Shown here piece by piece: positions 146 to 27,400 of a stretch of DNA of 34,735 nucleotides. The stretch is from Acetivibrio cellulolyticus CD2. Lineage in GTDB: Bacteria; Bacillota; Clostridia; Acetivibrionales; Acetivibrionaceae. The notes beneath the pieces are model-generated. The model searched no databases, had not been told where the DNA came from, and was given only the letters and a program-made list of their open reading frames with translations. The stretch lies in NCBI RefSeq assembly GCF_000179595.2, contig NZ_JH556658.1:623079-657813 (forward strand), given 5' to 3'. Every line of letters starts with the position of its first letter. The first letter of the stretch is position 1. A program made the position numbers and the translations under genes.

Positions 146-182
146 CTAAAAAAACAAACTAAGGATCTTTAAATACAGTGCT
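146..182 (-). repeat. Remnant of an NRPS 3' end overlapping the end of the GT8 gene
   Basis: Bases 150-182 match 23879-23911 at 31 of 33 positions. The latter segment encodes the last residues of the NRPS that starts at 33957. Read in the matching frame, 146-181 encodes ALYLKILSLFF followed by TAG, against ALYLKILSLFLK-stop in the NRPS. The GT8 gene runs into this remnant one base out of phase, so its last codons (Cys-Ile-stop) are borrowed from the remnant. The flanking bases 131-149 also resemble the spacer after the NRPS stop. This looks like a recombination joint. No transcription terminator is visible in 1-168. Confidence 0.75.
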
Positions 183-1720: not shown

Positions 1721-2875
1721 CTAATCTTGGCTTTCATCGGCAATGCTTATAAGTATTTCATATATCTCCTTAAGTACAGACCATTCTCTTTTCTTTGCCG
1801 AATTAATGGCTTGGATCAAATTTTCTATTTCGACCTTAAGCTTTAACTTAGATTTTTCAATTCGCTCCTGTGAAATATTGTACTGCAAGTCAAAAAACTT
1901 AAGACGAATGTTGTTAAACTCCTCAACTACCTTCAGATACTCTTCATACTTTTCAAGAAGAATATCATGAAGTTCAAACCGGTTCATGATAAAATTCAAC
2001 CTGGTAGCAATGCCTTTCTTATGCTCTGAGAGCATATGCACAGCCCTATAGTCAGTTAAAAACTTACCTTCAACAAATCCATGAAGGGCTCGAATAACAA
2101 CATCATGCACAGCAAAACCATAATTAATGCGCTCTTTTGACATCTTCCAGTAGTAAACTATGGAGTCGTCGCCCTTTGAATACAAGTAATTTTTTATATC
2201 ATGTGCAAATCTTTTAAGCCTGAAAGGATGTTCACATTCAAACCTGTTCATATAAAAGATCTGGACTGCTGACTCATATGCCCACGATGATGCCGGTTCA
2301 TTATAATGTTCTTTTCCCTTCTCATAGGCCTTGCTTACCGAATCATAACTGAAAATATGCTTGTTAAGAACACCTCCTATGTCATACTCGATTACATTAA
2401 ACTGCCTTTCAATGTTGTTGTAGCCGTAAACAAGGGTATGATGGAGGTAATGAGTTTTTTTGTACCGTGCCTTTCCCGGAATATAATACTCATCAATTGC
2501 TACATGGAGATAATAGCCGCGGCTTATTTTGTCAGTGATAAATCCTATAATATCGGTTTCTTTTTCCAAAAGAGGTGCTCCCAATGAAATTTCGTTTATG
2601 ACATCCCGATATGGAGCCCAAGTCTCAAGATACTCAAGCGTAATATAGTCATTGTTGTCAATAACGGAAAATATATTTGTATAGTGCTGAAAATACCATG
2701 TATGTAATTTTGGATCAGTAAGGATCATACATAGAGGCAGTGCACGATGACCATTTAATGTTACTTCCCTTTGAAGCTCAATTTTAAGTTCCTTAACATG
2801 CTCTTCATTTTTTACATACATCGAGGAAGGATGCCAACAGTTCTCTGTTTTATAGACCTCCTGCTTTTCCTCTTC
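1721..2875 (-). other. C-terminal BtrH_N-like / cysteine-peptidase-fold domain fused after the last PCP (candidate release domain)
   Basis: Residues 3261-3644 of the terminal NRPS follow the last carrier where a thioesterase would normally stand. The stretch ISRGYYLHVAIDEYYIP (about 3377-3393), then HHTLVYGY (3405-3412), resembles the core of BtrH_N-type domains, in which a hydrophobic strand ending in D-x-Y-Y-x-P is followed by a catalytic-type His before a GY turn. BtrH itself moves an acyl chain from a carrier protein to the amine of an aminoglycoside. A Cys at 3309 (LPLCMIL) is the only plausible nucleophile upstream, but its motif is not canonical. The last 130 residues look helical. The assignment rests on motif memory. 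Acting as an offloading acyltransferase or cyclase is an inference. Confidence 0.5.
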
Positions 2876-5800
2876 AGGTATTATGGGAGTGACAACTTCC
2901 AAATCAACTGCACTTGTGTTTTCAATAATCTCTGCAATTGTTTTATATCTGAAAATGTCGGCAATAGATATTTCAAGGCCTTTTAGTTTTGCCTCATTGG
3001 CAGCTTTAAGAGCTTTTAAGGAATCTCCCCCTAACAGGAAAAACTCGTCATAGACTCCTACCTTATCTACCTCAAGAAGGTTACTCCAAATCTCTGCTAA
3101 ATCCCATTCTCTTTTGTTTCTTGGCGCCACATATTCGGCTCCTAAGTCAATAGTATCATTAAACTTCAAAAGTGCCTGCCTATCAACCTTTCCGTTTTTC
3201 ATAAGAGGCATCTTCGGAAGGGAGATAAACCTTGAAGGTATCATGAAATCCGGCAATCCCTTTTGGAGATAACCTCTAATATCAGCTACATTAACCTCTT
3301 CTTCTGTCGCAATGTATGCACACAAATATTTTTCGCCATTGCGGTCTTTTTTTACAATTACTATTGCCTCTTTTACCAAGGGGTGTTTTAATAGCTGGGT
3401 TTCAATCTCACCGAGTTCAATTCTGTAGCCCCTTACCTTAACCTGGTCATCTGCCCTTCCCAAAAACTCAATATTACCGTCAGGCAATCTCCTGGCAAGG
3501 TCTCCTGTTCTGTACATCCTACTGCCCACCACATATGGGTCGTCCAAAAATTTCTCTGCTGTAAGGTCGGGCAGGTTTATGTATCCTCTTCCTGTCCCAG
3601 CACCTGTTATATATATTTCCCCGGGAATTCCTGCCGGCTGCATCCTGCCATTTTTACCCAGTATGTATATACCTACATTTGATATAGGTTTGCCAATCGG
3701 TGGTATATCAGGTATCACATCTTCAGGCCCCATAGTGTAGGTTGTTACAACGTGAGTTTCAGAAGGACCATAATGGTTGTGGAGATAAACCCCGTTTGAC
3801 TTCATGAAGCTTTTAAGCTCACCATTCACAATCAATTGTTCTCCCGCAGTGATGATATGCTCAATTGATCTAGGGAGCATTTCAACATATTTCTTTTCAT
3901 TAAGTATAAACTTTAAAAAGGCTGTAGGTAAAAATATCACCTTTATATCTCTTTCTTCAATAAACTTAAACAGTTTTTCTGCATCTTTCTTTTCTTCTTC
4001 TCCTGCTATTATAAGCTCTCCGCCCGAAAGCAACGCTCCGAATATCTCCTGGTAACATACATCAAAACTTACAGTCGCAAACTGCAGCACTTTTTTACTA
4101 AAATCAATATTCGTTTTGCTGTATTGGAAATCCATGAGGTTTGCCATGTTCCTGTGTTCTATCATTACTCCCTTTGGTTTTCCTGTAGTACCTGAAGTGT
4201 AAATTATATAAAGCAGATCCTTTGGATTATTCAGATTTTCAGGATTACTAGAAGACCCTGTAAAGATATCAGCATTTTCAAGGTTTAGAATTTGACCATT
4301 AAAATCAACACCCTCCTTTAAAATACCCTGGGTCAATAAAATCCCGGTTCCGCTATCCTCTAACATATATTGTATACGTTCTTCCGGGTATTCCGGATCA
4401 ATTGGAAGAATGTATCCTCCAGCCTTCAATACCGCCAAAACCGCTGTTACAAACTCAAAAGACCTTTTTGCAATAATTCCGGCAGGCTGACCCGGGTTCA
4501 AACCTTTTTCCCTTAAAAACCATGCCAATCGATTTGCTTTTTCATTGAGTTCTAAATAAGTATATTTTTTATTATCATATTCCAAAGCTGTCTTATCCGG
4601 CGTTTTAATAACCTGTTCTTCAAACATTTCATGAATTGTCTTATATCTCTCCCCATTTCCAGCTATATTGACATTGCTAACGACAGCTTCCTTTTCACTT
4701 GATGAGAGCAGATCTATATCCTTAATCTTTGCACCGGAATCGGATGCAACTGCATCAAGTATCCTAATAAAATACTGTGTCATTTGTTCTATTGTTTCAC
4801 GTTTAAAAAGGCTTGTAGCATATTCAAGGGTAAATTCAATCCTGTCTTCTACTTCCATAGCTTCAAGTAAAAGGTCAAACTTTGCAGTCTTGCGCTCCAT
4901 TGAAAATGGCTTAAACTTAAGTCCATTTATCTCACGGCCTTTGAAATCTGCATTTTGCATTGTAAGCATAGCACTAAAAAGCGGATTTCTGCTTAAATCT
5001 CTTTCCAGGTTTAATCTGCTGACAAGTTCTTCAAACTGATAATCCTGGTTTTCGTATGCTTCAAGGGCATTTTCCTTTACCTCATCCATGAATTGAGCAA
5101 TTGTTTTATCTCCCGATGGTTTGTTTCTGATTGCAAGTGTATTTACAAACATTCCTATTATGTTCTGCAAATCGGCGTGATGTCTTCCAGCTATAGTTGA
5201 GCCTATTACAATATCATCCTGACCCGAATACATAGACAAAAGAATACTATACGCAGCCAGCAGCTCCATAAATACAGTCTTGCCGCTTCCTGCAGCCTTT
5301 TTCAGCTTTGCCAGAAGTTCAGGTCCGACTTCAAAACTCACTGCAGCTCCCTCAAAATTCTGAATTGCAGGTCTTTGATAGTCCAATGGAAGATTTAAAA
5401 CCGGGATTTCGCCAGAATACTTTTCAAGCCAGTATTCTTCCTGCTTTTTCAATTCTCCGTTCTTAATAATCCTATTCTGCCACTCGGAAAAATCTCTGTA
5501 TCTTAAGCTGACATCTGCTAAAGCCTCACCATTATAAAGACTTATAAACTCGTTGATCAAAATCCCCATGGAAGTTCCATCCGAAATGATATGGTGCATA
5601 TCAAACATAAATACATGCTTTTGGCTATTGATTCTCATTACTCCGACTCTTAACAACGGTGCTTTACTCAAATCAAACGGTCTTAAAAATTTAAAAATTT
5701 CAGTTTCAACATCACACTCAAGTCCTTCAATATAGCTTATTGGTATATCAACGTTTCCTACTATTCTCTGCACCGGCTCCCCATCCACAATTTCAAACTG

Positions 5801-12663: not shown

Positions 12664-12669
12664 CTCCTT
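12664..12669 (-). promoter_or_regulatory. Ribosome binding site of the terminal NRPS, overlapping the hybrid gene's stop codon
   Basis: On the minus strand the hybrid gene ends TTC-TAA and the stop forms the first bases of TAAGGAG, eight bases before the ATG at 12655. Terminating ribosomes would sit on the next gene's Shine-Dalgarno sequence, so translation of the two giant proteins is probably coupled. Confidence 0.8.
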
Positions 12670-15600
12670 AGAAAACGAATTCAATTTCTTCTTTTATGAC
12701 TTTTTCGCGTTTCTTATATCCGTTAGTTACTTCCATCTCATTTATTTTAATTTTTTTGCCATCTGACACAGTCTTTAGTAGTAAAAGATAATCTTTTGCC
12801 ATCATAGATATGGTTTCTAACTTAAAGAGATCTGTTGTAAACTCAAAGTTTAAATTAAGTTTTTGCTCATGTTCTTCAGCTTGCAAGGTTAAGTCAAACT
12901 TTGAGATGTTGTTTTTCAGTTTATATGGTATAAACTTTAGATCATTTATCTCTTCTTCGTTTGTGTAATTGTTTTGAAGAACAAATGCAACATCAAACAA
13001 TGGATTCCTTCCAAAATCCTTTGGTATATCAAGCTTTTCTACAATATCCTCAAACTGATAATCCTGATTTTCAAAGGCTTTTAATGTCGTCTCTTTGACT
13101 TCCTCCAGATACTCATTAAAGAATATTGAATCCTTTGGATAACTTCTAATTGCAAGAGTATTTACAAACATTCCGATAACATTTTGAAGGTCTGGATGTG
13201 TTCTTCCACCCGATGGTGTACCTATAATTATTTCTTCCTGTCCTGAATACTTTGATAACAATACACCAAAAACCGAAAGCAATACCATAAATAAAGTTGA
13301 TCCTGAGTCCTTTGCTATTGTTTTTATACTGTCCAATATTTCTTTTGGCACTTCAAAGCTAAAATTATCGCCCTCAAAACTTTTTATAGGTGGTCTTTTA
13401 TAGTCATACTTTAACTCAAGAACCGGAATCTTTCCTTTAAAGGCTTCAATCCAATATTTTTCCTGTTGCTTAAGCGTCGATGACTTTTGATGCTGAACTT
13501 GCCACAGGCAATAATCTTTATATTGCAGCTTCAGTTCTGGAAGGCTATAACCTTTGTACATGGTAATAAATTCCTTCACTAATATGTTTATTGAAATTCC
13601 ATCTGAAATAATATGTGGCATGTCACAAATAAGAATATGCTTATTTTCAGAAACCCTTAAAACATTTACTCTAAGAAGTGCATCATTCTTTAAATCAAAG
13701 GGAAGAATCAATTTCCTGATAATAGTCTGTATATCATCTTCCAAGTTCTCTATAAAGTTTATCTTAAAGTCAAAGTCCTTATGTATCCTTTGCATTGGCA
13801 TATCATCTACTATTTCAAATGATGTTCTTAAGGACTCATGCCTTCTGATTAATTCATTGAATACTGTTTCTAATAGATTAAGATCCAGTTCCCCTTCTAT
13901 TTCAAGTGTTACAGGTTGATTATATACAGTGCTGCTGCTATCAATCTGGTTTAAAAGGTACATACGTTTTTGTGCTTTTGACAATGGATAGTAACTGACT
14001 TCAACAGCTTTGTCTATCTTTTTGTAGTACGTCATATCCAAGCCTTCAATATAATTAGCTAATGCTTCTATAGTTGGCATATCAAATATGTCTGTAAGCG
14101 TTAAGCCTTTATTAAATTCTTTAAATACTCTTGAAACAAGACTTGTAGCCTTTAAAGAATCTCCACCAACATCAAAGAAATTATCGTTTATACCTATGTT
14201 TTTAATTCTCAAAATTTCTTGACAAATCCTTGAAAGCTTTTTTTGGGTATCTGTAACTGGCGCATCATATTTCACAATATTATCTTTATTTGTATCAGTT
14301 TTTATTACTTCTGCTGAACCTGAAATGTTGTCTAAGAAGGCTATGTTTTCTTGGTTTCCTGAAATAAAATTCAGCTTTCTTCTTTCTTCAAAGAATCTCT
14401 CTTCCAGATTTGTAAATAACGAAATATCACCAAGTTTTAAATCGGGCTTAAATAAAACCTTATCCAAAAGCATTTCAAAATGTTTTAAAAAGCTTTGCAT
14501 GGTTACTTTTCTAAAAAGATCTGTATTGTATTGCAATGTAAAGCAAATTTCCTCATCATCATTGAAATATGCATCTACCTTAAAGTCCAGTAGTGCACCT
14601 TTTTGATCAATCTTGTATTCACAGAAAACAAGATCCTCTATTTGTATTTTTTCATTTTTATCAAACTGATTATGCAATATGAAAGCTGTATCAAACAAAG
14701 GATTTCTGGAACTGTCCAGTTGATACGACAACTTTTCCAATAATTTATCAAACGGATAATCCTGGTTATCATAAGCTTTCATAACCACATCACTGGCAAA
14801 ACTCAAATACTCATTAAACGTGCTATCTTTAGCTACACTGAATTTAATTGGAATATAATTTATAAAAACACCGATTAGATTTTCTAAATCCATATGATTT
14901 CTGCCAGCTGTTAAAGAGCTTATTACTATATCATTTTGAGCTGTATATTTTGAAAGAAGCAAAGAGTAACATGATAACAGAACTGCATTTGGGGTCGTTT
15001 TATGGTTTAGCGCCACTTCCTTTACTTTATCAGCAAGCCTTTTTTCAATAACAAGCTCTATATTTTCGCCTTGACAAGTCCTTTTATGTGGACGTCTATA
15101 GTCTAACGGCATATTTAATGGCATTACTTTTTCTTTGAATGTATCCAGCCAATATTTTTCCTGTTCACCCATATGCTTTTCAATAAGCTCGTTATGCCAG
15201 AGTGCATAATCTTTATATTGTATTCTTAGGTTTGCAAGATCTTTTGACATATAATTATCTATAAACTCATTCAGGAGTATTTTATAAGACACACCATCTG
15301 CTATTATGTGATGAATATCAAAAAATAATATATATTTTTCATCGTCTACTTTTACAAGACATACTCTAAATATAGGAGCTTTTTTCAAATCAAAAGGCTT
15401 AATCAAACTACTAAGAAGTACATCTATATTTTCTTCTTTTTTAGGCTCTATCTCTTCAATTGAAAATTCCACATTATCTAATATTTTTTGTACAGGCTTA
15501 CCATCTACAAAATAGAATTCAGTTCTTAAAACATCATGTCTATTAATTATTTTTTTAAACGCTTCTTCAAATTGCACCTTATCTACTTTACCGCTGATGC

Positions 15601-18600
15601 TAAGTGCAAAAGCCATGTTATAAGCAGTATCTTGTGGATTTATTTGATTTAATAAGAAAATCCGTTTTTGTGATGATGAAACAGGATAATATTCTCTTTT
15701 AGCTGTAGGTTCTATTTTGTAATAGTTGCTCTTCATAGCATCTTGCAGGCATCTTGAGAAAAGTCTTATGGTTGGCATTTTAAAAATATCTGAAAGTAAA
15801 ATATCTACATCAAATTCCTTGTTAATTCTCGAAATCAAAGTGGTAGCTTTTAACGAATGTCCTCCTAATGCAAAGAAACTATCATTTACACCCACTTTGT
15901 CTATGCCAAGAACCTGCTGCCAAAGCTTAGCCAGTCTTTCTTCTATTTCATTTATTGGTGCTTCATAGTTTGTTCTTATTACTTTTTCTTCATCAACCAT
16001 ATATACCGGAATACTCATAAGTTTCTTTGCAGAGTGGTTATGAAGAGCTAGCAAATAGTTATTGTGCAGTAAATCAGTATTACTTGTATCTACGTCCCAT
16101 ATGCTTTCATAAGCCTCATTTTTCACTTTACCAGCTTCTAAATACAAATTGTATAAATGGGCTCCTTTTTTCTCATAAAACAAATGTTCATTTGATGAAT
16201 TATCCTGAGGAACAATAAGTTCAATTTTCCCAGAACCCTTCATACAAAGCTTTATAACCCGAGTTTTTCCAGCGGCATTTTTTTCATACTCAAAGTTCCC
16301 ATTTGATAAATCATACTCTTTTGCATCTATCTTTTTATATATTTCACTTTCATGACCAGACGTGATATAACTTTCTTTTTGGGTATATCCCATATGATTT
16401 AAAAATTCCATGGCTTTTGAAATATTTTTAACAACTATTTGAGCAACACTTAACTTTTCATCATTATTAGTCATTTCAAAATAATCATCTCCCATTTCAA
16501 GGAGCTCTACCAATCCAAAATTACTGACATTTATAAAAGTTACTTTTTGATTATTAAAAAGAACTGCTTCCTCAGCTTCTTTTATAATCTCATAATTTAT
16601 ATTTTTAAGAGAAAGTTCACTTAAAAAGGTTTCTGCATTTTTTACTCTGTAGCACAAATGATATAAATTTGAATCACAATCTTCCAACATTCTATTTACA
16701 GGAGAGTATTGGTCATAAGGAGCTACAAGTTCTATATTGTCACATCCATCTCTTGTACATATCATAAGAGATGCATCTTGTATTGGATCATAAACATTTT
16801 CACCACAATAAAAGCCTTGAGCCTCATAGTATTTTTTTGCTTTTCCAATATCTCTTACAGCTATAGCAATATGATCTAAAGTATAAACTGTATCCTTCTT
16901 ATTAATGTTATTTGTTACTTCTGGTCTTCTTTCGTAAAAACATGAAATATTATCATTAGGTTTAGGGATAGAATTTACCTCAAGAGCATAAATATGAGGA
17001 TTTGAATTGTCACATTTTTTCCATCCTGACTTTTCCAAAAACTCAAGAAAAGGCGCATTCTTTTGCGTTGGATTAAACATAGCAACTACATTTTCTATTC
17101 CCATTTCTCTGCAATAATTTCCCATGAAATCTAAAATTACATTTTCAATTCCTCTTCCAAGTACTCTGCAGCTAAGTAAAAAAGTATCTATAAATAAATC
17201 TTTTTCGCCTTCTTTTGTAATAACAACTCCAACAAGCCCATAATCTCCAAACTTGTCCCAAACTTCAACCGCAAAGCATTTGATTTTAGGGTCTAAAAGT
17301 AGTGCTGTTATCTCTTCTTCAGATCTTCTTATAGTACTTAAGTTAAATTGGTTTGTTCTTTGTGTAAGCTGAGATACTCGCTTTAGCTGGTCCTCTTCCA
17401 TAGGATTTATACTTACTTTAATCTCAAGTTTTTTTATAAAATCCTCTACAGATAAATCAACATTCTTTAGAGCCTGTCTACTTTTTTCCGTCATATACAT
17501 TTTACTTCTGTCACGATCTTCAGCAGTTATCTCTTCAATATCGAAAGCCCAAATATGATTTAAAAAAGCAGGTATTTGTGTGGTATCTTCCGGAAGTAAA
17601 ATAGTGAGCACAGATGGACACTCTTTCATTACACTCTCGCATTCAAAAGGACTATCATCTATAAATATAAAGCTGTCTAATCCAAGATTTAATTCTTCTG
17701 AAAGTGATTTTATGTTTTTAGCTTTTGATTCCCAATTGATTCTTGTGCTTACAAAATGCTGCTTTTTTAGAACCATATCAGGATTATTTGAGAACACATC
17801 CAGGACATCCTGCTCATTGTTTTTACTGCAAATAGCAAGCAGCATTCCTTTTTCATATTTGTCCACCATGAATTTTTGAAGCTCAATATATTCCTGATGG
17901 ATTTTTACACCGTTTTCTCCAGCTTCGCCGCAGATGCCCTTCCAAAGTGTATTATCACAATCTAAAACAACTACTTTAAAAGGCCTTCTATGCTTACTTA
18001 ATATTTTTCTTGCTGTATAAGTTCCCATAGCAGCAAAATATTCATCTGTAAATGGTAAATGCCCTATTTTATCCTTATTTAAATCAAAAACATCAAAAAT
18101 ATCATATTCTTTATCCAGATTGGAATAATCAATTATTGTTACATTTTCATATTCCTGCACTTGAGTTTTCCATCTGATATTCAGATTTTTAATATAATCT
18201 ATGACTTTAGTGCTTAGATCAAGGTGAGTCGATACTGAAAACAATCCAATATAGCAACTCATTTTATCAGTGCAGTTTCTCATAATTTCGATTAGATTTT
18301 GGTAATTCTCCTCAAGACACGCTATTTTTATATCATCACTTCCATTGAGATTTCTAATCCAATCCTCAAATCTTACCAATAGGACGTTAACCCCTTTATT
18401 GGTATACAAAAGACTTGCAGGGTCCAAAAGCTGTTGAAAAACTTGATTATATGGTGCAAATTTTATTTTGGTCTCAACTCCAAATTTACTGCACCACCAT
18501 TTTAAATAATCTTCAATTGGTTCAGCTGTAAAGCTTGCACAAACAACCACATCCAAAGGAGCAGCCTTAAAGTTTAATTGTCTCTTTCTTTCAAGGTCAT

Positions 18601-21600
18601 TTTTTTCTGATTCATCAAATAATTCAATTGCTTTTAAATGAATATCAAAATCAGATACCACGATATCTATTAACCTGTCAAAATCTTGTGCAAACTTGCT
18701 CATACTGCTTTCACAAAATAAACTTGTGTTATATTCCAAAACGCATGAAAGCTCACCATTTGGCACAGGATAAGCATCAATTTTAAAATCGAGTTTTGAA
18801 GTATTATATTGGAAGTCATAGCTTTTAAATTTCAACTCACCTACTTCAATGCCATCTACCGCCACATACTCATTTTCATTATGAAAAATCAGCATGGTAT
18901 CAAAAATGGGATTCCTCGAAATATCTGGTTTTAAGCTTAGCAATTCAACCATTTTTTCAAATGGGTAGCTTTGATGTTCGTATGCAAGATATAAAGCTTC
19001 TTTCACATCGCGCACAAAATCTTCAAAAGATTTCTCTTCATCAAAGTTTATACAAATTGGCAGAAAATTAATGAAAACACCAATTATATTTGAAACATCT
19101 GCATGTTCTCTTCCCGATACCGTGGTCCCCAGTACAAGCTCATTCTGACCTGAATACTTATATAAAAGAAGAGAATATACAGCAAATACAAAAGTATTTA
19201 ATGTTATTCCAATGTTCCTCGATAACATGTTTACCTTTTCCATTTTATCTTTGGATACACTAAATTTAATTTTTGATCCGGCAAAGGACCTTTCATTTTG
19301 GCGAGCTATATCCAATGGCATATTAAGTAATGGCAAATCTTTACCTAATATATTTCTCCAAAAGTCTTCATGACATTTTTCATTTTGAGTTAAGCTGTTT
19401 TGCCATACTACATAATCTTTGTAATGAATTTTTAAAGGCGATAAATTTTCTCCATTTAAAAGGCTGAGGAATTCCTTTATCATTATTCCCAGTGAAACCC
19501 CATCCCCAATAATATGATTCATATCAAGCATAAGAAGATGTCTTCTGTCGCTAAATTTAACAAGACTCACCCGAAACAACGGTGCTTTCTCTAATTGAAA
19601 TGGATTAATAAAGCTCTTAATTATGTTGTCAGTATTCTCTTCATCCCCATCCATAAATCCCATTTCAAAATCTATATTATTGTGTATTTTCTGAACCAGC
19701 TCATCATTTACAGTAAGGAAGGCTGTTCTAAAAGCTTCATGCCTGTTTACAAGCATTTTAAAGTATGTTTCAAATTTTTCTCTGTCAATGATACCTTCAA
19801 TAATCAAAGCTAATGGTATGTTGTAGCTCGTACTGCTTCCTTGAAGCTTTTCTAAAATATAAATTCTCTTTTGTGAAGATGACATAGGATAAAATTCATT
19901 TAATGGGGCGGATGGAATATTTACGAGGCCCTTATTATCTAAATTTTTATGAATATTATTATCTCTTTCTTTATTATTGCTTTCAGATATATATTTCGTA
20001 AGAGTTTCAACGGTATCGTAGTTCATGATATCTGTAACTTTTATTTTACATCCGATATATTTATTTATCTGATTTGCAATATTTATGGCAATTATTGAGT
20101 CGCCACCCATATCATAAAAACTCATTGTTACATCAATCTCATTATAGCCAAGTTCCTTGCCCCAAACATTTGCTATTTTAATCTCTTCCTCACTATAATC
20201 ATTTTCCGGTCTTCCCATCAGTAAAACATCAAAAGCCTGTGTTAATTCTGCATCTACTTCCTTGCTTGTTTTATCCCCTATTGCTTCACGATTAACACAA
20301 CCTGTATTTTTCTTTTTAATACCCACCGGAATATTAATAAAGCATTTCTTTTTGCTGAATGAATATGTGGGAATGCTCATTTTCCTTGGCCTTGAAGTAT
20401 ACAATAATGAAAAATCAATGATCTCTCCATTAACATAAGCTTTACAAATTTCATTAATCTCACCTGAAGAGTGAGTCTTTTGATTGCATAAATTATTTAT
20501 TTCGCCATAATAAATTCCATCATCTATGTAGGTTTTCAAACCAAAACTTTTTATAAATTTCAGTTTTTCAATAAAATCAGCAACTTTTTTACCAATGACA
20601 GCCAATCTAAATTCATAATGCCCTCTGCCGGTATAAGCTGTGTAACACATATCATCAGTGCAAAGATTCAAATCACTTTCCATAAATGTCAAATACTCTT
20701 CTAGCAAACTCAATAATTCATCAGGCCCTTTAGCTGACAAGCAAAGTATTTTATCTGCATCACTGTCTATATTATCTGGTTTTACACAAGGTGCTTCTTC
20801 CAACACAATATGACAATTTGTACCACTCAAGCCAAACGCACTAACTCCAGCTCTTTTAGGCTGTTCGCCCTGCCAATCATTTAACTTATCATTTACATAA
20901 ACAGGCGAATTTTCAAAGTCAATATTCCTGTTTGGAGTTTTAAAATGTAGTGATGGTGGGAGCTTTTTATTTTTTAATGCAAGTACTGTCTTGATTAACC
21001 CAACCATACCTGCTGCACTGTCTAAATGCCCAAGATTTGTCTTTACTGATCCTATGGCACAAAATTTCTTCTTATCGGTATATATTGAGAATGCCCTTTT
21101 GATCCCATCAATTTCAATGGGATCCCCAAGTCTTGTGCCAGTTCCATGAGCTTCAATATAGCTTATTGTGGCCGGATCAACTCCAGCATCCTTCCAGGCA
21201 TCTATCAAAACCTCCGCTTGTGCAAGAGCATTTGGTGCTGTTATTCCGATAGAACTTCCATCTTGATTTACAGCACTTCCTTTTATAACAGCATATATAT
21301 TATCCTTATCCTTTATCGCTTTTGATAATGGCTTTAATACTATAGCCATTATACCTTCACCCATGCATGTACCAGTTGAGCTATCATCAAAGGCTCTGCA
21401 CATATAGTCATCTGACTCTATTCCAAGCATGTTATTGTCTTCTAACGGCATTAGGCTTAGCTTCCCGCTACCTGCTATGGCCATTTCACAATCTCCATTT
21501 CGCATTGCTCTGCACGCTGTATGGATAGCAACCAGTGAAGATGAACACGCAGTATCTACCAAAACACTAGGACCTTTTAAATCATAAACATACGAAACTC

Positions 21601-22135
21601 TTCCTGGAATAACAGATGCCATATTACCAGGTATAGCACTACCAGCAGAGGCCGGCTCTATATCCTGGATAAGCCTTTGATATCCAAGATCAGAGACAAA
21701 GCCAAAATAAACTCCTGTTTTACTCCCCTTCAAAGCTCCGTTGCCATATCCGGAATCTTCAATAGCTTTAGATGCTATTTCAAGAAATAATTTTTGGTTC
21801 GGATCAATTAAGGTTGCCTCTTTTGGAGAAATATTAAAGAAACCATAATCAAACTCATCAATTGTTTCGATATAAGATCCCCTTTTAAATTTTAAGGTAT
21901 CAGTATCTTTTCCCATGAAGTCAAGATAGGCTTCTGCCATTTTTCTTCTATTCTCCGGAAGATCTGATATTAAGTCTTTCCCATCTTTGAGATTTTCCCA
22001 GAACTGATTTACACTGTCTGCCTTAGGCAGCTTTAAACCTATACCAATTATTGCTATGTCTTTAATACTTTGCTCTTTAATCTCAGTTATGTTCATTTCC
22101 CCAAGATCTTTTGAAAGCTCTTTAAGGCTTAGCAT
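12668..22135 (-). CDS. Hybrid PKS-NRPS without A or AT domains: KS-ACP-C-FkbH-VOC-VOC-CP-C-CP-C
   Basis: 3155 residues. The ketosynthase (25-450) has Cys197 (DTACSSS), His330 (EAHGTGT) and His370 (KTNLGH) all present. A 150-residue post-KS linker ending IPTYSFSKKKCF follows, with no GHSxG acyltransferase. Next come ACP1 (MGGDS, Ser680); C1 745-1180 (NHIIGDG near 872); FkbH-type HAD domain about 1180-1730 (DCDNTLWKG, Asp1391, Asp1393, Thr1395); two VOC folds about 1750-1885 and 1890-2010; carrier 2 (LGGHSLK near 2087); C2 2135-2565 (HHIIADG near 2274); carrier 3 (VGGDSLK near 2656); and C3 2700-3150 (PHIISDG near 2840). FkbH proteins load a glyceryl group from 1,3-bisphosphoglycerate onto a carrier, and here FkbH sits where an A domain would. 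C1 may therefore join the chain to a glycerate hydroxyl or a derived group. Carrier 3 has no loading domain in cis. C3 should serve the first A domain of the next protein. Confidence 0.93.
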   Translation of the reverse strand: MLSLKELSKDLGEMNITEIKEQSIKDIAIIGIGLKLPKADSVNQFWENLKDGKDLISDLPENRRKMAEAYLDFMGKDTDTLKFKRGSYIETIDEFDYGFFNISPKEATLIDPNQKLFLEIASKAIEDSGYGNGALKGSKTGVYFGFVSDLGYQRLIQDIEPASAGSAIPGNMASVIPGRVSYVYDLKGPSVLVDTACSSSLVAIHTACRAMRNGDCEMAIAGSGKLSLMPLEDNNMLGIESDDYMCRAFDDSSTGTCMGEGIMAIVLKPLSKAIKDKDNIYAVIKGSAVNQDGSSIGITAPNALAQAEVLIDAWKDAGVDPATISYIEAHGTGTRLGDPIEIDGIKRAFSIYTDKKKFCAIGSVKTNLGHLDSAAGMVGLIKTVLALKNKKLPPSLHFKTPNRNIDFENSPVYVNDKLNDWQGEQPKRAGVSAFGLSGTNCHIVLEEAPCVKPDNIDSDADKILCLSAKGPDELLSLLEEYLTFMESDLNLCTDDMCYTAYTGRGHYEFRLAVIGKKVADFIEKLKFIKSFGLKTYIDDGIYYGEINNLCNQKTHSSGEINEICKAYVNGEIIDFSLLYTSRPRKMSIPTYSFSKKKCFINIPVGIKKKNTGCVNREAIGDKTSKEVDAELTQAFDVLLMGRPENDYSEEEIKIANVWGKELGYNEIDVTMSFYDMGGDSIIAINIANQINKYIGCKIKVTDIMNYDTVETLTKYISESNNKERDNNIHKNLDNKGLVNIPSAPLNEFYPMSSSQKRIYILEKLQGSSTSYNIPLALIIEGIIDREKFETYFKMLVNRHEAFRTAFLTVNDELVQKIHNNIDFEMGFMDGDEENTDNIIKSFINPFQLEKAPLFRVSLVKFSDRRHLLMLDMNHIIGDGVSLGIMIKEFLSLLNGENLSPLKIHYKDYVVWQNSLTQNEKCHEDFWRNILGKDLPLLNMPLDIARQNERSFAGSKIKFSVSKDKMEKVNMLSRNIGITLNTFVFAVYSLLLYKYSGQNELVLGTTVSGREHADVSNIIGVFINFLPICINFDEEKSFEDFVRDVKEALYLAYEHQSYPFEKMVELLSLKPDISRNPIFDTMLIFHNENEYVAVDGIEVGELKFKSYDFQYNTSKLDFKIDAYPVPNGELSCVLEYNTSLFCESSMSKFAQDFDRLIDIVVSDFDIHLKAIELFDESEKNDLERKRQLNFKAAPLDVVVCASFTAEPIEDYLKWWCSKFGVETKIKFAPYNQVFQQLLDPASLLYTNKGVNVLLVRFEDWIRNLNGSDDIKIACLEENYQNLIEIMRNCTDKMSCYIGLFSVSTHLDLSTKVIDYIKNLNIRWKTQVQEYENVTIIDYSNLDKEYDIFDVFDLNKDKIGHLPFTDEYFAAMGTYTARKILSKHRRPFKVVVLDCDNTLWKGICGEAGENGVKIHQEYIELQKFMVDKYEKGMLLAICSKNNEQDVLDVFSNNPDMVLKKQHFVSTRINWESKAKNIKSLSEELNLGLDSFIFIDDSPFECESVMKECPSVLTILLPEDTTQIPAFLNHIWAFDIEEITAEDRDRSKMYMTEKSRQALKNVDLSVEDFIKKLEIKVSINPMEEDQLKRVSQLTQRTNQFNLSTIRRSEEEITALLLDPKIKCFAVEVWDKFGDYGLVGVVITKEGEKDLFIDTFLLSCRVLGRGIENVILDFMGNYCREMGIENVVAMFNPTQKNAPFLEFLEKSGWKKCDNSNPHIYALEVNSIPKPNDNISCFYERRPEVTNNINKKDTVYTLDHIAIAVRDIGKAKKYYEAQGFYCGENVYDPIQDASLMICTRDGCDNIELVAPYDQYSPVNRMLEDCDSNLYHLCYRVKNAETFLSELSLKNINYEIIKEAEEAVLFNNQKVTFINVSNFGLVELLEMGDDYFEMTNNDEKLSVAQIVVKNISKAMEFLNHMGYTQKESYITSGHESEIYKKIDAKEYDLSNGNFEYEKNAAGKTRVIKLCMKGSGKIELIVPQDNSSNEHLFYEKKGAHLYNLYLEAGKVKNEAYESIWDVDTSNTDLLHNNYLLALHNHSAKKLMSIPVYMVDEEKVIRTNYEAPINEIEERLAKLWQQVLGIDKVGVNDSFFALGGHSLKATTLISRINKEFDVDILLSDIFKMPTIRLFSRCLQDAMKSNYYKIEPTAKREYYPVSSSQKRIFLLNQINPQDTAYNMAFALSISGKVDKVQFEEAFKKIINRHDVLRTEFYFVDGKPVQKILDNVEFSIEEIEPKKEENIDVLLSSLIKPFDLKKAPIFRVCLVKVDDEKYILFFDIHHIIADGVSYKILLNEFIDNYMSKDLANLRIQYKDYALWHNELIEKHMGEQEKYWLDTFKEKVMPLNMPLDYRRPHKRTCQGENIELVIEKRLADKVKEVALNHKTTPNAVLLSCYSLLLSKYTAQNDIVISSLTAGRNHMDLENLIGVFINYIPIKFSVAKDSTFNEYLSFASDVVMKAYDNQDYPFDKLLEKLSYQLDSSRNPLFDTAFILHNQFDKNEKIQIEDLVFCEYKIDQKGALLDFKVDAYFNDDEEICFTLQYNTDLFRKVTMQSFLKHFEMLLDKVLFKPDLKLGDISLFTNLEERFFEERRKLNFISGNQENIAFLDNISGSAEVIKTDTNKDNIVKYDAPVTDTQKKLSRICQEILRIKNIGINDNFFDVGGDSLKATSLVSRVFKEFNKGLTLTDIFDMPTIEALANYIEGLDMTYYKKIDKAVEVSYYPLSKAQKRMYLLNQIDSSSTVYNQPVTLEIEGELDLNLLETVFNELIRRHESLRTSFEIVDDMPMQRIHKDFDFKINFIENLEDDIQTIIRKLILPFDLKNDALLRVNVLRVSENKHILICDMPHIISDGISINILVKEFITMYKGYSLPELKLQYKDYCLWQVQHQKSSTLKQQEKYWIEAFKGKIPVLELKYDYKRPPIKSFEGDNFSFEVPKEILDSIKTIAKDSGSTLFMVLLSVFGVLLSKYSGQEEIIIGTPSGGRTHPDLQNVIGMFVNTLAIRSYPKDSIFFNEYLEEVKETTLKAFENQDYQFEDIVEKLDIPKDFGRNPLFDVAFVLQNNYTNEEEINDLKFIPYKLKNNISKFDLTLQAEEHEQKLNLNFEFTTDLFKLETISMMAKDYLLLLKTVSDGKKIKINEMEVTNGYKKREKVIKEEIEFVF
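16106..18598 (-). other. FkbH (HAD glyceryl-loading) plus double VOC insertion replacing an A domain
   Basis: Encodes residues about 1180-2010 of the hybrid. The FkbH part starts directly after the C domain (APLDVVVCASFTAEP), has the HAD DxDxT motif, and ends with an acetyltransferase-like segment (LSCRVLGRGIENVILD). Two VOC/glyoxalase-like units follow: YTLDHIAIAVRDIGKAKKYY, and LSVAQIVVKNISKAMEFL. VOC enzymes are metal-dependent isomerases, epimerases, lyases or dioxygenases. Here they may act on the glyceryl- or hydroxyacyl-carrier intermediate, which is inference. Metal-ligand conservation could not be settled by eye, and the second unit is the more diverged. Confidence 0.75.
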
Positions 22136-22961
22136 AAATCAGTTCCTCCTTTTCTTTTTCATTATCATCTTGATTTTTAATTCTGCTTCTAATATATAAG
22201 TATCTATAGGCGCCCAGAACTGCTAACAGAAGAACAATTACGCCTATATAAAGGTATGTATCATCAACCCTTTTAAGTTGAACCCAAAGCCCTGTCTTAA
22301 TAGAAATTGCTATTACATAAATACTTGTCACTTGCAGTGTTATCGATGCAAGTATAGACCGCGCAAACACATAGGCTAATGTATATAACAAAGCTGCTAT
22401 GGCTGCATATGCTCCAATTGCAATTCCCATTGTAAATACATTTATAAACCCATAAAGTAAGGCTGATACAATAATTGCCGGGTAAAGAGAAATGCTGTTT
22501 CTTATTTCATTAAATATAACTCCTCTAAATATCATTTCTTCCATTGCATACGTGACAGCAACCATTATTAGAAAAATAACAAAGTTGTTATAACCATAAA
22601 CCTGGTAATTAAGAAATTGCTCAAAAATCGGTATGTTTTTTTCAACAAAGTTTGTGTTACAAAGTAAACATGTTATTGTACCCATTAAAATGCCTGCTAT
22701 GGTAAGTAATATTAGATTTGATGAATCAAGCTTAGAGAAATTACAGGTTTTAATTATACTTTTCTTTCTTGCTTTTAGTATCAATTCATATATGGAAATG
22801 GTAATAACAAACGCAAGGAAAGAAATAATATCATAGTATTTTTGAGATATACTTTCAGGCAAAATACCACTAAACCAAAGTTTACCTATCCCATATGAAG
22901 GAATAAATACTGCTATAAGATATATAATAATATATATTGTTGTTTTTAAATGTTTTTTCAT
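22122..22961 (-). CDS. CPBP (Abi/CAAX-protease-like) intramembrane protein, histidine motifs degenerate
   Basis: 279 residues with about seven or eight hydrophobic membrane segments and a charged, lysine/glutamate-rich tail. Motif 1 of the CPBP family is intact: EEMIFRG at 141-147 (Glu141, Glu142, Arg146). The His of motif 2 is replaced by Asn174 (LLYGFINV), and the His of the last motif appears to be Gln210 (SITLQVTSI). These residues normally hold the catalytic metal or water, so proteolysis is doubtful. Family members often sit in peptide-antibiotic loci as immunity or maturation factors, and that role is inferred here. It starts after GGGAGAAG at 22965-22972, 68 bases past its paralogue. 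Its last 14 bases overlap the hybrid PKS-NRPS start (TTTATGCTAAGCC), which implies translational coupling and co-regulation. Confidence 0.85.
   Translation of the reverse strand: MKKHLKTTIYIIIYLIAVFIPSYGIGKLWFSGILPESISQKYYDIISFLAFVITISIYELILKARKKSIIKTCNFSKLDSSNLILLTIAGILMGTITCLLCNTNFVEKNIPIFEQFLNYQVYGYNNFVIFLIMVAVTYAMEEMIFRGVIFNEIRNSISLYPAIIVSALLYGFINVFTMGIAIGAYAAIAALLYTLAYVFARSILASITLQVTSIYVIAISIKTGLWVQLKRVDDTYLYIGVIVLLLAVLGAYRYLYIRSRIKNQDDNEKEKEELIYAKP
22145..22150 (-). promoter_or_regulatory. AGGAGG ribosome binding site of the hybrid PKS-NRPS, inside the CPBP gene
   Basis: A perfect AGGAGG lies nine bases before the ATG at 22135 and within the last codons of the upstream membrane-protein gene, whose stop follows at 22124-22122. 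It fixes the hybrid start and points to coupled translation. Confidence 0.85.
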
Positions 22962-23029
22962 GGTCTTCTCCCGATTGTTATAATTATTATGGTGCTCAGC
23001 ACTGCTATAATATCTTCATGAAGTTTGCC

Positions 23030-23842
23030 TTAAAAAGGATGTACAACATTGCAATCACCCTTAGGTTCTTGCTGTCTGGCAGCCCTACGAATATTAATTG
23101 CCATAACTGCTAAAAGTGCTGCTATACTTACTGAAAACAATACAATAGATAAGTTTTGTGTAAAATGTCCGTTTATCTCTGTCCTTCTTATTAATGCTAA
23201 CGTCGTACTACAGCAGACCTGAGTTATCAAGGATGAATATATTGATTTGCCAAAGTAAAATACCAATCCAAATGCCAACTGACCTAAAAACCCATAAAAT
23301 ATTATAGAAGGTGAATTACCAAAGTATATCAATTCCCCTGCATAGAACATAGCTTGAATCACAAGAGCTAACGATACTGGTATTACACTTTTAAGCTCAT
23401 TAAAAGCAAGTCCTCTGAAGCAAAACTCTTTATACGCAGAATTGATCAACGTCACAAGTAAAACCAAAATAATGTTTCCACTTAATATCCAGTCGATAGA
23501 TCCACCAACTGATGCCATTTTGAACCCAGATATGTTTACTAATGAATTTGTAAAAACAGCCAATAAAATTCCGACTCCTGCACAAGTAATCCCATTTAAA
23601 AATGTAATTCTTTTAATGCTTGCAAAAGTAATAGGATTTTCCTTTCTAACATATTTTACAAATAATGCTAATAGACTCATTGAGATAATATCCAAAATTA
23701 CAAAAACAGAAGTTGGAGTTTCCTCACGTATGGAATTAATAAATGCAACATCCTTTATAACCCTAAGAACCAAAAGATTTGATACCATTGGTATTACAAC
23801 AAACAAGGCAACAAATAAAACCATTTTCATAAACTTTTTCAT
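23030..23842 (-). CDS. CPBP-like intramembrane protein, strongly degenerate active site
   Basis: 270 residues, hydrophobic, about seven membrane segments, ending in a short basic and polar tail. It is a paralogue of the next gene in the operon. The CPBP motif 1 reads YKEFCFRG, with Lys138 in place of the first Glu and Glu139 and Arg143 kept. The motif 2 position reads FYAGE (Glu170 where His is expected), and the final His position is Gln208 (LITQVCC). By family knowledge it is therefore unlikely to be an active protease. It may act as an immunity, chaperone or binding protein for the NRPS product (inference). A clean AGGAGG at 23852-23857 sets the start, 29 bases after the stop of the first NRPS. 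The weak motifs leave room for another polytopic membrane family. Confidence 0.72.
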   Translation of the reverse strand: MKKFMKMVLFVALFVVIPMVSNLLVLRVIKDVAFINSIREETPTSVFVILDIISMSLLALFVKYVRKENPITFASIKRITFLNGITCAGVGILLAVFTNSLVNISGFKMASVGGSIDWILSGNIILVLLVTLINSAYKEFCFRGLAFNELKSVIPVSLALVIQAMFYAGELIYFGNSPSIIFYGFLGQLAFGLVFYFGKSIYSSLITQVCCSTTLALIRRTEINGHFTQNLSIVLFSVSIAALLAVMAINIRRAARQQEPKGDCNVVHPF

Positions 23843-23871: not shown

Positions 23872-24462
23872 TTATTTTAAAAACAAACTAAGAATCTTTA
23901 AATATAGTGCTGCAAACTCCTTCATTTTAGCTTTACTTAACCGATTTCCATTAAATCTTATATACAATGTGGTACATTCCTCTTCGCCATATTCAAATGC
24001 AATATCAAATACATCTAACAGAGCAAAGCTTGCACTTATGTTTTCAGACTTATAGAAAAGAGGCACAATCTCATATGTATCCTTTGCAACTACTTTTCTT
24101 TTTAAATCTTCTGTTCTGTAACTTGCATCTGCTGAAACACTTTTACGAACTTTAAAGACTTCTTTAAATAAATCCTCAAACTTATTTATTTGCCCTAGTT
24201 CAATACTTATTGAAGAGAATGTGTCTGATTCATCGAGTGAAACTTGAAATACTGTATTAGTCTCTTCACTTATTTGTGAAATCAAATATGCACCTACCGA
24301 GATCAGGATATCTGATATCTCAATATTATTAACCGCTGCAGCTTCCTTAAGGCTCTTGTGGGTAGCTAAGTCTATATTCAGATTAAAACCCATTTCCTTA
24401 TTGGCTCCCGCTTCAATACCAAAATACTCTTTAGAAAAAGGAACTCCTTTTAATGAAATTTC
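23872..24462 (-). other. C-terminal orphan half condensation domain of the first NRPS
   Basis: Residues 3166-3361 after PCP3 resemble the second lobe of a C domain (LKEAAAVNNIEISDILISVG, and ending in the LYLKILSLFLK helix), but there is no first lobe and no HHxxxDG. It may be a docking element for the hybrid's KS or the remains of a lost module. A short copy of its 3' end lies at 146-182. Confidence 0.65.
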
Positions 24463-27400
24463 TTTATTCGTCTCTTCTTTTTGGCTATTTATAAACTCTG
24501 CAATCATTGAAATAGTAGGATAAGCAAAAAGATCTGTAATTTTTACCTTTCCCGGGTATAATTCTTCAACCTTTGAATGCATCTTTATAAGTAGAATTGA
24601 ATATCCACCCAACTCAAAGAACCTGTCGTTTATACCGATTTTATCAAGCCCTAAAATTTCCTTCCAAATCTCTAAGAGTTTTTCTTCCACCTCATTTGTG
24701 GGAGCAACATATTCCGTTCCGGTTTCTATCCCTCCATCCACTTGAGGCAGTTCCTTCCTGTCAACCTTTCCGCTTGAGGTCAAAGGTATTTTATCCAGCT
24801 TGATAAAGTAGGACGGTATCATATAAGCTGGAAGGTTCTTGGACAAAAACTCTCTTATTTCGTTAACAGTAAGTTCCCTGCCTGCCACAAAGTAAGCATA
24901 AAGAATCATATCTTTATCACTGTTTTCCCTGGCAACTACGGCTGCATCAGTTATATCCTCATGTTTTAAAAGCTCTGTCTCTATCTCTCCAAGCTCAATT
25001 CTGAAGCCTCTTACCTTAACCTGATTATCTTTTCTTCCAATGTATTCAACATTTCCGTCAGGCAGCCAGCGAGCGATGTCTCCTGTACGGTAAAGCATCT
25101 CACCTTCTTTGAATGGATTTTTCACAAATTTCTCTTTATTGAGCTCAGGCCTGTTAATATACCCTCTAGCAAGGCCATCCCCGGCTAAATGCAGTTCACC
25201 TGGCACTCCTACCGGCTGTATAACATTGTTGTTGCCAAGTATATAGAAACTTGTATTGTCAATTGGTTTGCCTATAGGTACAATATCTACCTCATCTACA
25301 GTCGGGCAGTCGAAATATGACACGTCTATAGTTGCTTCTGTAGGACCATAGAGATTATGAAGGGTTGTGCCATTAGCTTTTGTGAGCAGGCTGTTAAACT
25401 TCTTAACCTGTGCCGGATGAAGTGCCTCCCCACTGCAAAATACCCTTTTGAGGCTCTTTAACTTACTTAGGTCAGCACCCTTGCCTAAATACTCCAGAAA
25501 AGCATTTAGCATTGACGGCACAAAGTGCATAACAGTAACTTTATTCTTATCTATAGCCTCCAAAATCACCTCAGGATTCTTTTCTCCCCCAGGCTCAAGG
25601 AAGCATACTGCTGCGCCAGTCATACCCCACCAGAAAAGCTCCCATACCGATACATCAAATGTAAAAGGTGTCTTTTGCAGTATCACATCCCCATCTCCTA
25701 TAGGGTAAGCCTTCTGCATCCAATTGAGCCTGTTTACAAGTGAATAGTGCTCAATCATCGCACCCTTCGGTTTTCCTGTTGATCCCGATGTGTATATGAC
25801 ATATGCAAGGTCGTTTGGTTTACTTAGTACCTGCTGTTTGCCAGCACTTTCTTCATAAATACCTGCATCTTCAACAAATATCTTCTTTATTCCATCACCT
25901 GATTTGCTGTCAAATGCCCTATTTGTCAAAAGCACAACCGCATTTGAGTCCTCTAGCATGTACAAAATTCTATCATCAGGGTATTCCGAGCTGATAGGAA
26001 GATATGCTCCTCCTGCCTTATGTACTGCTAGAATGCTAATCTCCATCAGAATGGATCTGTCAAGCATTATTGCTGCAATACTGTCCCTTCCAACACCATT
26101 TTGCTGTAAAATAGCCGCAAGCTTATCCGCTCTTAAATTGAGTTCCCTGTATGTTACCCTATCCTCCCCAAATATGGCAGCTACATTATTCGGTGTCTTT
26201 AGAGTCTGTTCTTCAAAAAGCTTATACACCGGCTTTTCCTTATCATACTCAGCTAACGTACTGTTAAACACATTAATAATCTGCTCATGTTCTGCTTTTG
26301 AAAGCATATCTATTTCATCTAAAGTGAGTTCAGCATTATTTATAACCTCATCAACTATATTTTTAAAGTGTCCGGCCATTCGTTCTATAGTCTCCGGTTT
26401 AAAGAGGCGCGTGCAGTATTCAATATTAACAGCCAAGTCCTCTTCGTTCTCAACAACCTCCATTGTCAGATCGAATTTTGAAGTTTTACTTTCTACTTTG
26501 TATGGCAAAAACCTTACGTTTTCAAATTCCATAGTAGGAATGCCCATATTCTGCAGTACAAACATAGTATCGAACAATGGATTCCGGCTTATGTCCCTCG
26601 GAATTTGAAGAGTATCTACAAGCCTTTCAAACTGGTAATCCTGGTTTTCATAAGCTTTCATCGCATTTTCCCTTACTTCATCAAGGAAAAGTGTGAAGCT
26701 TTTATCTCCGCCTGGGAAACTCCTCAAGGCAAGGGTATTAACAAACATCCCCACAACATTTTCAACATCAGCATGCTGTCTTCCGGCTGTCGGCGATCCT
26801 ACCACAATGTCTTCCTGACCGGTATATTTATATAAAAGTGTGTTATATGCCGCCAAAAGAACCATGTAAAGTGTAGCACCTTTTCTGAGCGCCAGTTCTC
26901 TTATCCCATCAAGCGTCTTTTTATCGAAACTGAAAGTATATTTATCTCCCTCACTGCTTTGTACAGCAGGCCTTTGATAATCGGAAGGCAGATTAAGTAC
27001 AGGAATCTCTCCCTTAAACCTGTCAAGCCAGTATTCTTCCTGTCTTCTTAATTCATCGCCTGATTCAAGGGAATTTTGCCATGCTGCAAAATCCTTAAAC
27101 TGGATTTTGAGTTCAGGCACACTTTCTCCCATATAAAGGCTGATAAATTCCTTTGCAAGTATCACCGATGAAACTCCATCAGCAATTATATGGTGCATAT
27201 CAAACATCAGGAAATACCTGGCGGTATTCATTTTAACCAATGCCACCCTGAAGAGCGGTGCTACCTCTAAATTGAAAGGGCTTATAAACCTTTCTGCTAT
27301 TTTCTCCGGCTCTTCTCCTATAGCTTCACAATAATCAAAATCAATCTTCATATTGTCATGAACAATCTGGGCAGGTATTTCTCCAAAAAGCTTAAAGGAA

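Follow-up and report, generated by a model that had tools for sequence, protein, structure and literature searches.

Here, we present an analysis of P0001, a megasynthase of 3155 amino acids encoded on the minus strand at positions 12668-22135 of a 34,735-nucleotide stretch of the Acetivibrio cellulolyticus CD2 genome (contig NZ_JH556658.1, positions 623,079 to 657,813; hereafter, the window). P0001 (genome coordinates C8:635746-645213) contains a module in which an FkbH domain stands in place of an adenylation (A) domain and in which vicinal oxygen chelate (VOC) domains are inserted in the linker between FkbH and its carrier protein (CP). Modules of the order condensation (C) domain-FkbH-CP are already known; the VOC insert is the new element. 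We conclude that this module is a real, recurring variant of the glycerate module of nonribosomal peptide synthetases (NRPSs) that is undescribed in the open-access PMC literature searched. We propose that FkbH loads a glyceryl unit, that the C domain before it, C1, forms an ester, that the complete VOC domain, VOC1, epimerises carbon 2 of glyceryl, and that a second glyceryl unit is probably loaded on the third carrier, CP3; taken as a whole, we judge this reading to fall just short of an even chance.

A probable glycerate module with a VOC insert

Pfam and NCBIfam profile searches gave the domain order KS-ACP-C-FkbH-VOC-VOC-CP-C-CP-C, as a first-pass annotation had read it, except that the second VOC is a truncated single module and not a full domain. 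That annotation had also claimed an intact ketosynthase (KS) triad and HAD motif and the absence of any A or acyltransferase (AT) domain, and these claims stand: the KS motifs and LDCDNT are present, Pfam found neither A nor AT families across the whole protein (E <= 1), nor when it was scanned as ten segments, and none of the PF00698 (0/10) or PF00501 (0/59) matches in the 6.16-Mb, 10-contig genome lies inside the P0001 coordinates. Pfam matched PP-binding three times, Condensation three times, and Glyoxalase_4 at residues 1754-1846.

FkbH comprises an N-terminal domain (17978..18550, residues 1196-1386), recognised by alignment and by a weak match to PF21211 FkbH_N (E=0.0054, under the cut-off), and a HAD-type glyceryl transferase/phosphatase domain (17018..17977, residues 1387-1706), which scored 308 bits against TIGR01686 (curated cut-off, 146.65). 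Its HAD motif, LDCDNT at residue 1391, conforms to DxDxT, and the D, D and T are invariant in both FkbH alignments. FkbH of P0001 is the sole FkbH match in the genome. C1 (18596..19900, residues 746-1180; PF00668) lies directly before it and the carrier CP2 (15731..15949, residues 2063-2135; PF00550) after it, with no A domain, as in the vioprolide type of module; however, the carrier does not follow directly, and VOC1 and the half domain VOC2 lie in between. All these domains, like those described below, are on the minus strand. A linker segment of the pattern W...LLH..YL..L...L..P (16001..16099, residues ~2013-2045) is common to aligned relatives without VOC and marks the insertion point.

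The claim that FkbH replaces the A domain is in line with the described C-FkbH-CP modules of vioprolide, corramycin and cystomanamide, including FAAL-ACP-C-HAD-T in corramycin and vioprolide; in vioprolide, glycerate is attached by an ester-bond-forming C domain and activation of D-3-phosphoglycerate by FkbH was shown (PMC8949500, PMC10099666, in the excerpts retrieved). Likewise, the PKS-NRPS (PKS, polyketide synthase) of foxicin has C-FkbH and then PCP-TE (PMC5318452, excerpt). P0001 is like these four systems in having FkbH instead of A before a carrier, but compared with vioprolide-type modules it adds a VOC and a half-VOC, a preceding KS-ACP, and a following empty C-CP; the excerpts describing vioprolide-type C-FkbH-CP modules contain no mention of a VOC domain. 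In aeruginosins of the suomilide, varlaxin and dysinosin type, a role in loading an NRPS carrier with glycerate has been proposed for FkbH (PMC13122637, PMC10143770); in contrast to P0001, the excerpts place these FkbH modules in the starter position with O-methyltransferase and sulfotransferase tailoring, list D-glyceric acid for dysinosins and leave VOC unmentioned. No paper treating FkbH and glyoxalase together was found in the open-access PMC literature. FkbH of P0001 would load D-glyceryl from 1,3-bisphosphoglycerate.

VOC1 (16496..16882, residues 1752-1880; PF13669, AlphaFold2, Foldseek) is a full two-module VOC with a complete glyoxalase-I/methylmalonyl-CoA-epimerase fold and four putative metal ligands, H1755, E1802, H1826 and E1877, which may together bind a metal. 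VOC2 (16139..16450, residues ~1896-1999; PF13669 at E=0.053, AlphaFold2) is a single beta-alpha-beta-beta-beta module, to which the second, lower-confidence AlphaFold2 model adds one helix and one strand; a complete VOC1 and a single-module VOC2 are common to both models (model 1: 951 residues, 25 sequences, pLDDT 81, pTM 0.62; the weaker model 2: 328 residues, 7 sequences, pLDDT 62, pTM 0.67). The ligand set of VOC2 is lost in P0001 and in the relatives examined, the first position being Q, Q, R, T/R and Q in P0001 and loci L118, L119, L120 and L181, respectively, and with about one module and no ligands VOC2 lacks the features of the glyoxalase I branch that we sought in it. The supposed VOC pair is, then, one catalytic-looking domain and a half domain without the ligand set. 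By contrast, H/E/H/E is kept in all eight complete VOC1 domains downstream of FkbH, which cluster together in the VOC tree (support 0.94), and also in L161; entries short of one ligand (L064, L084, L175) are cut or frame-broken stretches.

The nearest solved relative of VOC1 is glyoxalase I of Clostridium acetobutylicum (2qh0, 3hdp; TM 0.82-0.84 by target length), which has the same four residues in the alignment. For the VOC model, Foldseek placed the Ni(II)-bound glyoxalase I 3hdp first (target-length TM 0.82) and methylmalonyl-CoA epimerases, interleaved with tandem-VOC dioxygenases, after it; similarly, the profile search matched VOC1 to 2qh0/3hdp at E 3e-38, with the mitochondrial methylmalonyl-CoA epimerase next (1.2e-13). 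According to a review excerpt, the C. acetobutylicum active site lies inside one subunit; this enzyme is a stand-alone homodimer, whereas VOC1 is embedded in a megasynthase and has a half-VOC beside it. Methylmalonyl-CoA epimerase has the VOC fold in common with VOC1 (TM ~0.64-0.74 by target length) but has, near the last Glu, an insertion of two residues that is absent from VOC1. Insertion-bearing VOCs form a separate clade, and VOC1 is outside the clade of six epimerase-patterned VOCs (support 1.0), whose epimerase label derives from this insertion pattern. Methylmalonyl-CoA epimerase acts by epimerising an acyl thioester at its alpha carbon, and both this enzyme and glyoxalase I move a proton beside a thioester carbon. 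Because of tandem matches to HPPD and hydroxymandelate synthase, a dioxygenase role was also considered; it was set aside because VOC1 carries H/E/H/E instead of the facial triad typical of such dioxygenases.

Recurrence of the insert and FkbH-VOC gene pairs

The first-pass annotation knew of no characterised system with this exact order; the order C-FkbH-VOC-VOC-CP is not confined to this genome. Using a six-sequence FkbH alignment, we scanned contigs of GTDB species genomes by pattern and examined the best 80 of 130 relatives (a scan with P0001 alone gave 18 pattern-matching stretches and no relatives). FkbH-VOC-CP was found in seven of these 80 loci, an enriched figure because the ranking favoured loci that resemble the VOC-bearing query. 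The hosts are two Clostridia metagenome-assembled genomes (MAGs; L118, SZUA-474, and L119, G249), Paenibacillus monticola, P. sanguinis, P. caui and P. ferrarius (L120-L123), and an Aminicenantes MAG (L181), in which the frame is broken near undetermined bases. In two further loci, from Thiosymbion and Parabeggiatoa (L161, L175), the VOC lies ahead of FkbH (VOC-FkbH-CP), and nine loci, all from Bacilli (L124, L126, L130-L134, L138, L150), have KS-T-C-FkbH without VOC. The FkbH-CP linker that receives the insert is otherwise conserved; the insert occurs both in elongation modules (of the window and L118) and in the starter module of L119, which has no C domain. Of the two FkbH modules in L118, the first has a VOC and the second does not. 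As a separate observation, MaoC-like and SDR/KR domains lie between C and FkbH in the two Paenibacillus loci scanned of the four (L120:8444-10006, L123:8450-10006). A 4261-residue megasynthase elsewhere (L054/L055; G022 C1:1043876-1056658) contains two very similar tandem C-FkbH-T modules, which would give a glyceryl-glycerate dimer.

The tie between VOC and FkbH is borne out not only by this recurrence but also by the context of separate VOC genes. A class-wide search with the VOC pair, in which only the first five candidates were scored in many genomes, matched 19 of 391 genomes, including A. cellulolyticus itself. Ten of the 18 foreign VOCs have FkbH in the ~1.5-kb stretch fetched, one of them fused, and for L080 and L085 FkbH was seen in wider stretches (L228, L229). 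The 12 foreign VOCs with the motif YHxC(Y/F) are all fused to or near FkbH; the other six, with no FkbH in the ~1.5 kb fetched, belong to a VOC clade of their own. A second sample, drawn family-wide with 2qh0 as the query, gave matches in 39 of 397 genomes. Of the 30 loci retrieved from it, at least three coincide with places in the first sample, and two have an ACP only. The genome context of 2qh0 itself in C. acetobutylicum was not found among the 397 genomes (best match, 52% identity).

In one genome (L067:9065-11333, G008), Pfam identified separate ACP, FkbH and VOC genes in a row inside a nonulosonic-acid cluster, i.e., the same three functions as in the P0001 module, but as separate genes; FkbH and VOC genes also lie side by side in L064, L065, L066 and L068. 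The L067 partners are GNAT, NeuB, a DegT aminotransferase, a nucleotide-sugar dehydratase-type protein and a cytidylyltransferase, which suggests a glyceryl-type acyl group on a sugar; because GNAT, NeuB and the cytidylyltransferase adjoin, the acyl unit would be destined for a sugar and not for a peptide. In a Campylobacter jejuni locus, the fkbH-domain gene cj1302 and cj1301, 'annotated as an epimerase', are in the same region (PMC7099621, excerpt).

Proposed function and alternative explanations

In our model, P0001 would take the middle position in a hybrid NRPS/trans-AT-PKS line. Its KS would extend the peptide of the upstream NRPS P0003 by one malonyl unit, presumably loaded by an AT in trans; FkbH would take 1,3-bisphosphoglycerate, strip the phosphate and place D-glyceryl on CP2; and C1 would esterify a glyceryl hydroxyl with the beta-ketoacyl chain. 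At the putative metal site of VOC1, the alpha-hydroxyacyl thioester on CP2 would react via a metal-bound enolate, with inversion of carbon 2 (D- to L-glyceryl) as the most likely outcome; VOC2 would be a non-catalytic half domain. The domain pair C2-CP3 would probably bear a second glyceryl served by the same FkbH, and C3 would hand the chain to the amino acids of the downstream NRPS P0002. While the domains, their motifs, their recurrence, the association of FkbH with VOC and the clade of C1 and C2 can be read from the sequences, we infer the substrate, the ester, the metal, the epimerisation and the second glyceryl unit from them. It had been proposed that C1 would form an ester or an amide; of the two, the ester is likelier because glyceryl has only hydroxyls to offer. 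C1 falls in a pre-FkbH clade.

The glyceryl thioester on the carrier, an alpha-hydroxyacyl thioester, is similar to what glyoxalase I produces, a lactoyl thioester. Epimerisation at carbon 2 is the simplest reaction that would still provide a competent acyl donor. The same enolate could also lead to loss of the C3 hydroxyl, yielding pyruvyl or enolpyruvyl, or, by the reverse glyoxalase reaction, to a hydroxypyruvaldehyde hemithioacetal, so that the unit would no longer be glycerate. The VOC1 fold and its four-ligand site suit proton abstraction beside the thioester, the nearest solved relative being a glyoxalase I fits this outcome, and the C3 unit may be processed further in L120 and L123, given their MaoC-like and SDR/KR domains before FkbH. 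However, the window module has no such domains, an aldehyde-level hemithioacetal would be unfit for the next C domain, and we know of no VOC dehydratase of this kind; we consider this outcome unlikely. It also seems rather improbable that VOC1-VOC2 does nothing to the chain, being an insert for structure or carrier docking or else a relic, and that the module yields a D-glycerate ester as in vioprolide. This idea would account for the 71 of 80 loci without an FkbH-fused VOC (a few of which end at a contig edge, e.g., L135, L137, L144, L187), for the degenerate VOC2 in the carriers examined, and for the coexistence in L118 of FkbH modules with and without VOC. It is at odds with the four VOC1 ligands being kept across Clostridia, Paenibacillus and Aminicenantes, and a mere linker does not explain the separate-gene and front-fused versions.

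The earlier domain reading overlooked that C2 (14393..15697, residues 2147-2581) is of the pre-FkbH type, with no loading domain after it. In a tree of 180 C domains, in which a few genomes are represented twice and no vioprolide sequence is included, C1 and C2 fall in a clade of 26 tips (support 1.0). C1 and 23 further tips of this clade precede FkbH (24/26, one genome being present twice); the remaining two are C2 itself and the second C domain of P0003. The sister group of C2 comprises the two C domains of L118, of which the second stands before an FkbH; the nearest neighbours of C2, L118_1550 foremost, are C domains before FkbH. L118 is the nearest relative of the P0001 locus (CPBP proteins 41% and 43% identical, KS 58%) and has FkbH at the position matching the empty C2-CP3. 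Because C2 is sister to the L118 domains and L118 is the nearest relative, C2-CP3 is most likely the counterpart of a glycerate module, with FkbH lost here or with the state before a duplication in L118 preserved; together with the grouping of C2, the L118 FkbH makes a second glyceryl on CP3 (14033..14251, residues 2629-2701; PF00550), which has no loading domain of its own, plausible. C3 (12704..13999, residues 2713-3144; PF00668) has mostly C domains preceding A domains as its nearest neighbours. The C motifs are NHIIGDG (C1, residue 873), HHIIADG (C2, 2275) and PHIISDG (C3, 2840), so that two of the three C domains retain only the second His. Apart from the VOC question, an A domain acting in trans could supply CP3 with serine or a different amino acid, or the line could skip CP3. 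Some of the 59 PF00501 matches in the genome are in ORFs of ~500-600 amino acids, which could serve for this; however, the neighbours of C2 and the FkbH at this place in L118 speak against it, and we regard it as possible but doubtful.

Several observations weigh against parts of our proposal. CP3 scores slightly higher as an A-type than as an FkbH-type carrier (95.4 vs 92.7 bits, with a classifier that was correct for only 8 of 15 FkbH carriers), which would also fit trans loading. The second C domain of P0003, which precedes an A domain with a Ser-like code (read by eye), shares the clade of C1 and C2, so that membership of this clade could reflect an acceptor with a CH2OH group (glyceryl or seryl), and this likewise favours trans loading or skipping. 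The second FkbH of L118 may have been gained by duplication instead of a counterpart having been lost in the window. In the tree of donor-side C domains, FkbH-VOC carriers are unseparated from FkbH or A carriers, and the tree thus lends no stereochemical support; in the FkbH tree, the VOC-bearing domains are not monophyletic. Only 16 of the 30 VOC loci in the second sample have FkbH within ~1.5 kb, and the VOC subfamily is therefore not exclusive to FkbH. Finally, the nearest solved VOC (3hdp/2qh0) is filed as glyoxalase I, and the VOC1-VOC2 model also fits tandem dioxygenases over a longer stretch (TM ~0.47 by query length).

Cluster context and implications

The KS (20786..22060, residues 26-450; PF00109/PF02801 and a custom hidden Markov model; profile match over residues 26-398) has intact catalytic motifs (TACSSS 195, EAHGTGT 328, KTNLGH 365). 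It is followed by a KS-AT-type linker without an AT (20216..20749, residues ~463-640; PF22621 CurL-like_PKS_C at 463-525), which we take to be the remnant of an excised AT, and by ACP1 (19973..20191, residues 649-721; PF00550), typed as a KS-type carrier (82.5 bits vs 63.7 for A). As in trans-AT PKS modules, there is a KS and an ACP without a cis AT and a stand-alone AT elsewhere in the genome: a single-domain protein of 428 amino acids (L002:9340-10626), ~9.5 kb left of the window, which may act in trans on ACP1.

P0001 lies between two NRPSs on the same strand. The upstream P0003 (23872..33957) has three C-A-T modules and a C-terminal tail of ~200 amino acids (window 23872-24477); similar NRPS tails occur in L112/L119, L045, L054, L124 and L131, are partly matched by a condensation model and, as the next megasynthase begins with a KS in several cases, look like a docking device. 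The downstream P0002 (1721..12655) is composed of a half-C, A-T, C, a half-C, A-T, C, A-T and a C-terminal domain of ~390 amino acids. This domain (window 1724-2890), of a type ~375-390 amino acids long found after the last carrier, is not itself matched by any Pfam family at E <= 0.01; it recurs in the neighbouring NRPS (L002:3551-4672) and in the genus g5 NRPSs L046, L049, L050 and L052 (G016, G019, G020, G022), and is perhaps an unusual release domain. From pocket residues read by eye at Stachelhaus positions, we take the A domains to specify Ile-Ser-Ser in P0003 and Thr, a Cys-like code and Pro in P0002; these codes are a lead only, and the motif script located only some motifs. The line might thus assemble acyl-Ile-Ser-Ser, one ketide, glyceryl, possibly a second glyceryl, and Thr-X-Pro.

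Two proteins of the CPBP/Rce1-like membrane protease family (PF02517), P0004 (22122..22961) and P0005 (23030..23842), are also encoded on the minus strand. Such pairs lie upstream of KS-T-C-FkbH genes in the window (22122-23842), L118 (3828-5523), and L131-L134 and L150 (at ~4.7-6.4 kb), in Clostridia, Cohnella and Paenibacillus. Homologues occur in six of the 113 loci searched (L118, L131-L134, L150), and the pair therefore marks a wider Bacillota cluster family; self-protection, export or maturation are candidate roles. Similar proteins of 482 and 484 amino acids, family-8 glycosyltransferase-like with a CPCC cysteine-rich tail (Pfam run on the L002 copy only), end the P0001 cluster (window 169-1617) and lie in the adjacent trans-AT cluster (L002:7825-9279). 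A gene start with a weak IS1182 transposase match (window 34120-34734; 18.7 bits, under the cut-off) adjoins the cluster.

Tentatively, and at somewhat less than even confidence, we suggest that VOC1 is a cis-acting epimerisation domain for alpha-hydroxyacyl units, a metalloenzyme of glyoxalase fold that inverts glyceryl on its carrier and is unrelated to the C-like E domains of NRPSs, that separate FkbH-VOC-ACP genes make L-glyceryl for surface sugars, and that some 'glyoxalase I' proteins of Clostridia are glyceryl-ACP epimerases. If true, assembly lines would possess another means of setting alpha-carbon stereochemistry, structurally unrelated to the first and usable for hydroxy acids derived from glycolysis. 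This would account for the repeated pairing of FkbH and VOC genes, one annotated instance of which lies in a surface-sugar cluster, and a VOC insert after FkbH would be a sequence mark that predicts the configuration of glycerate in unknown natural products.

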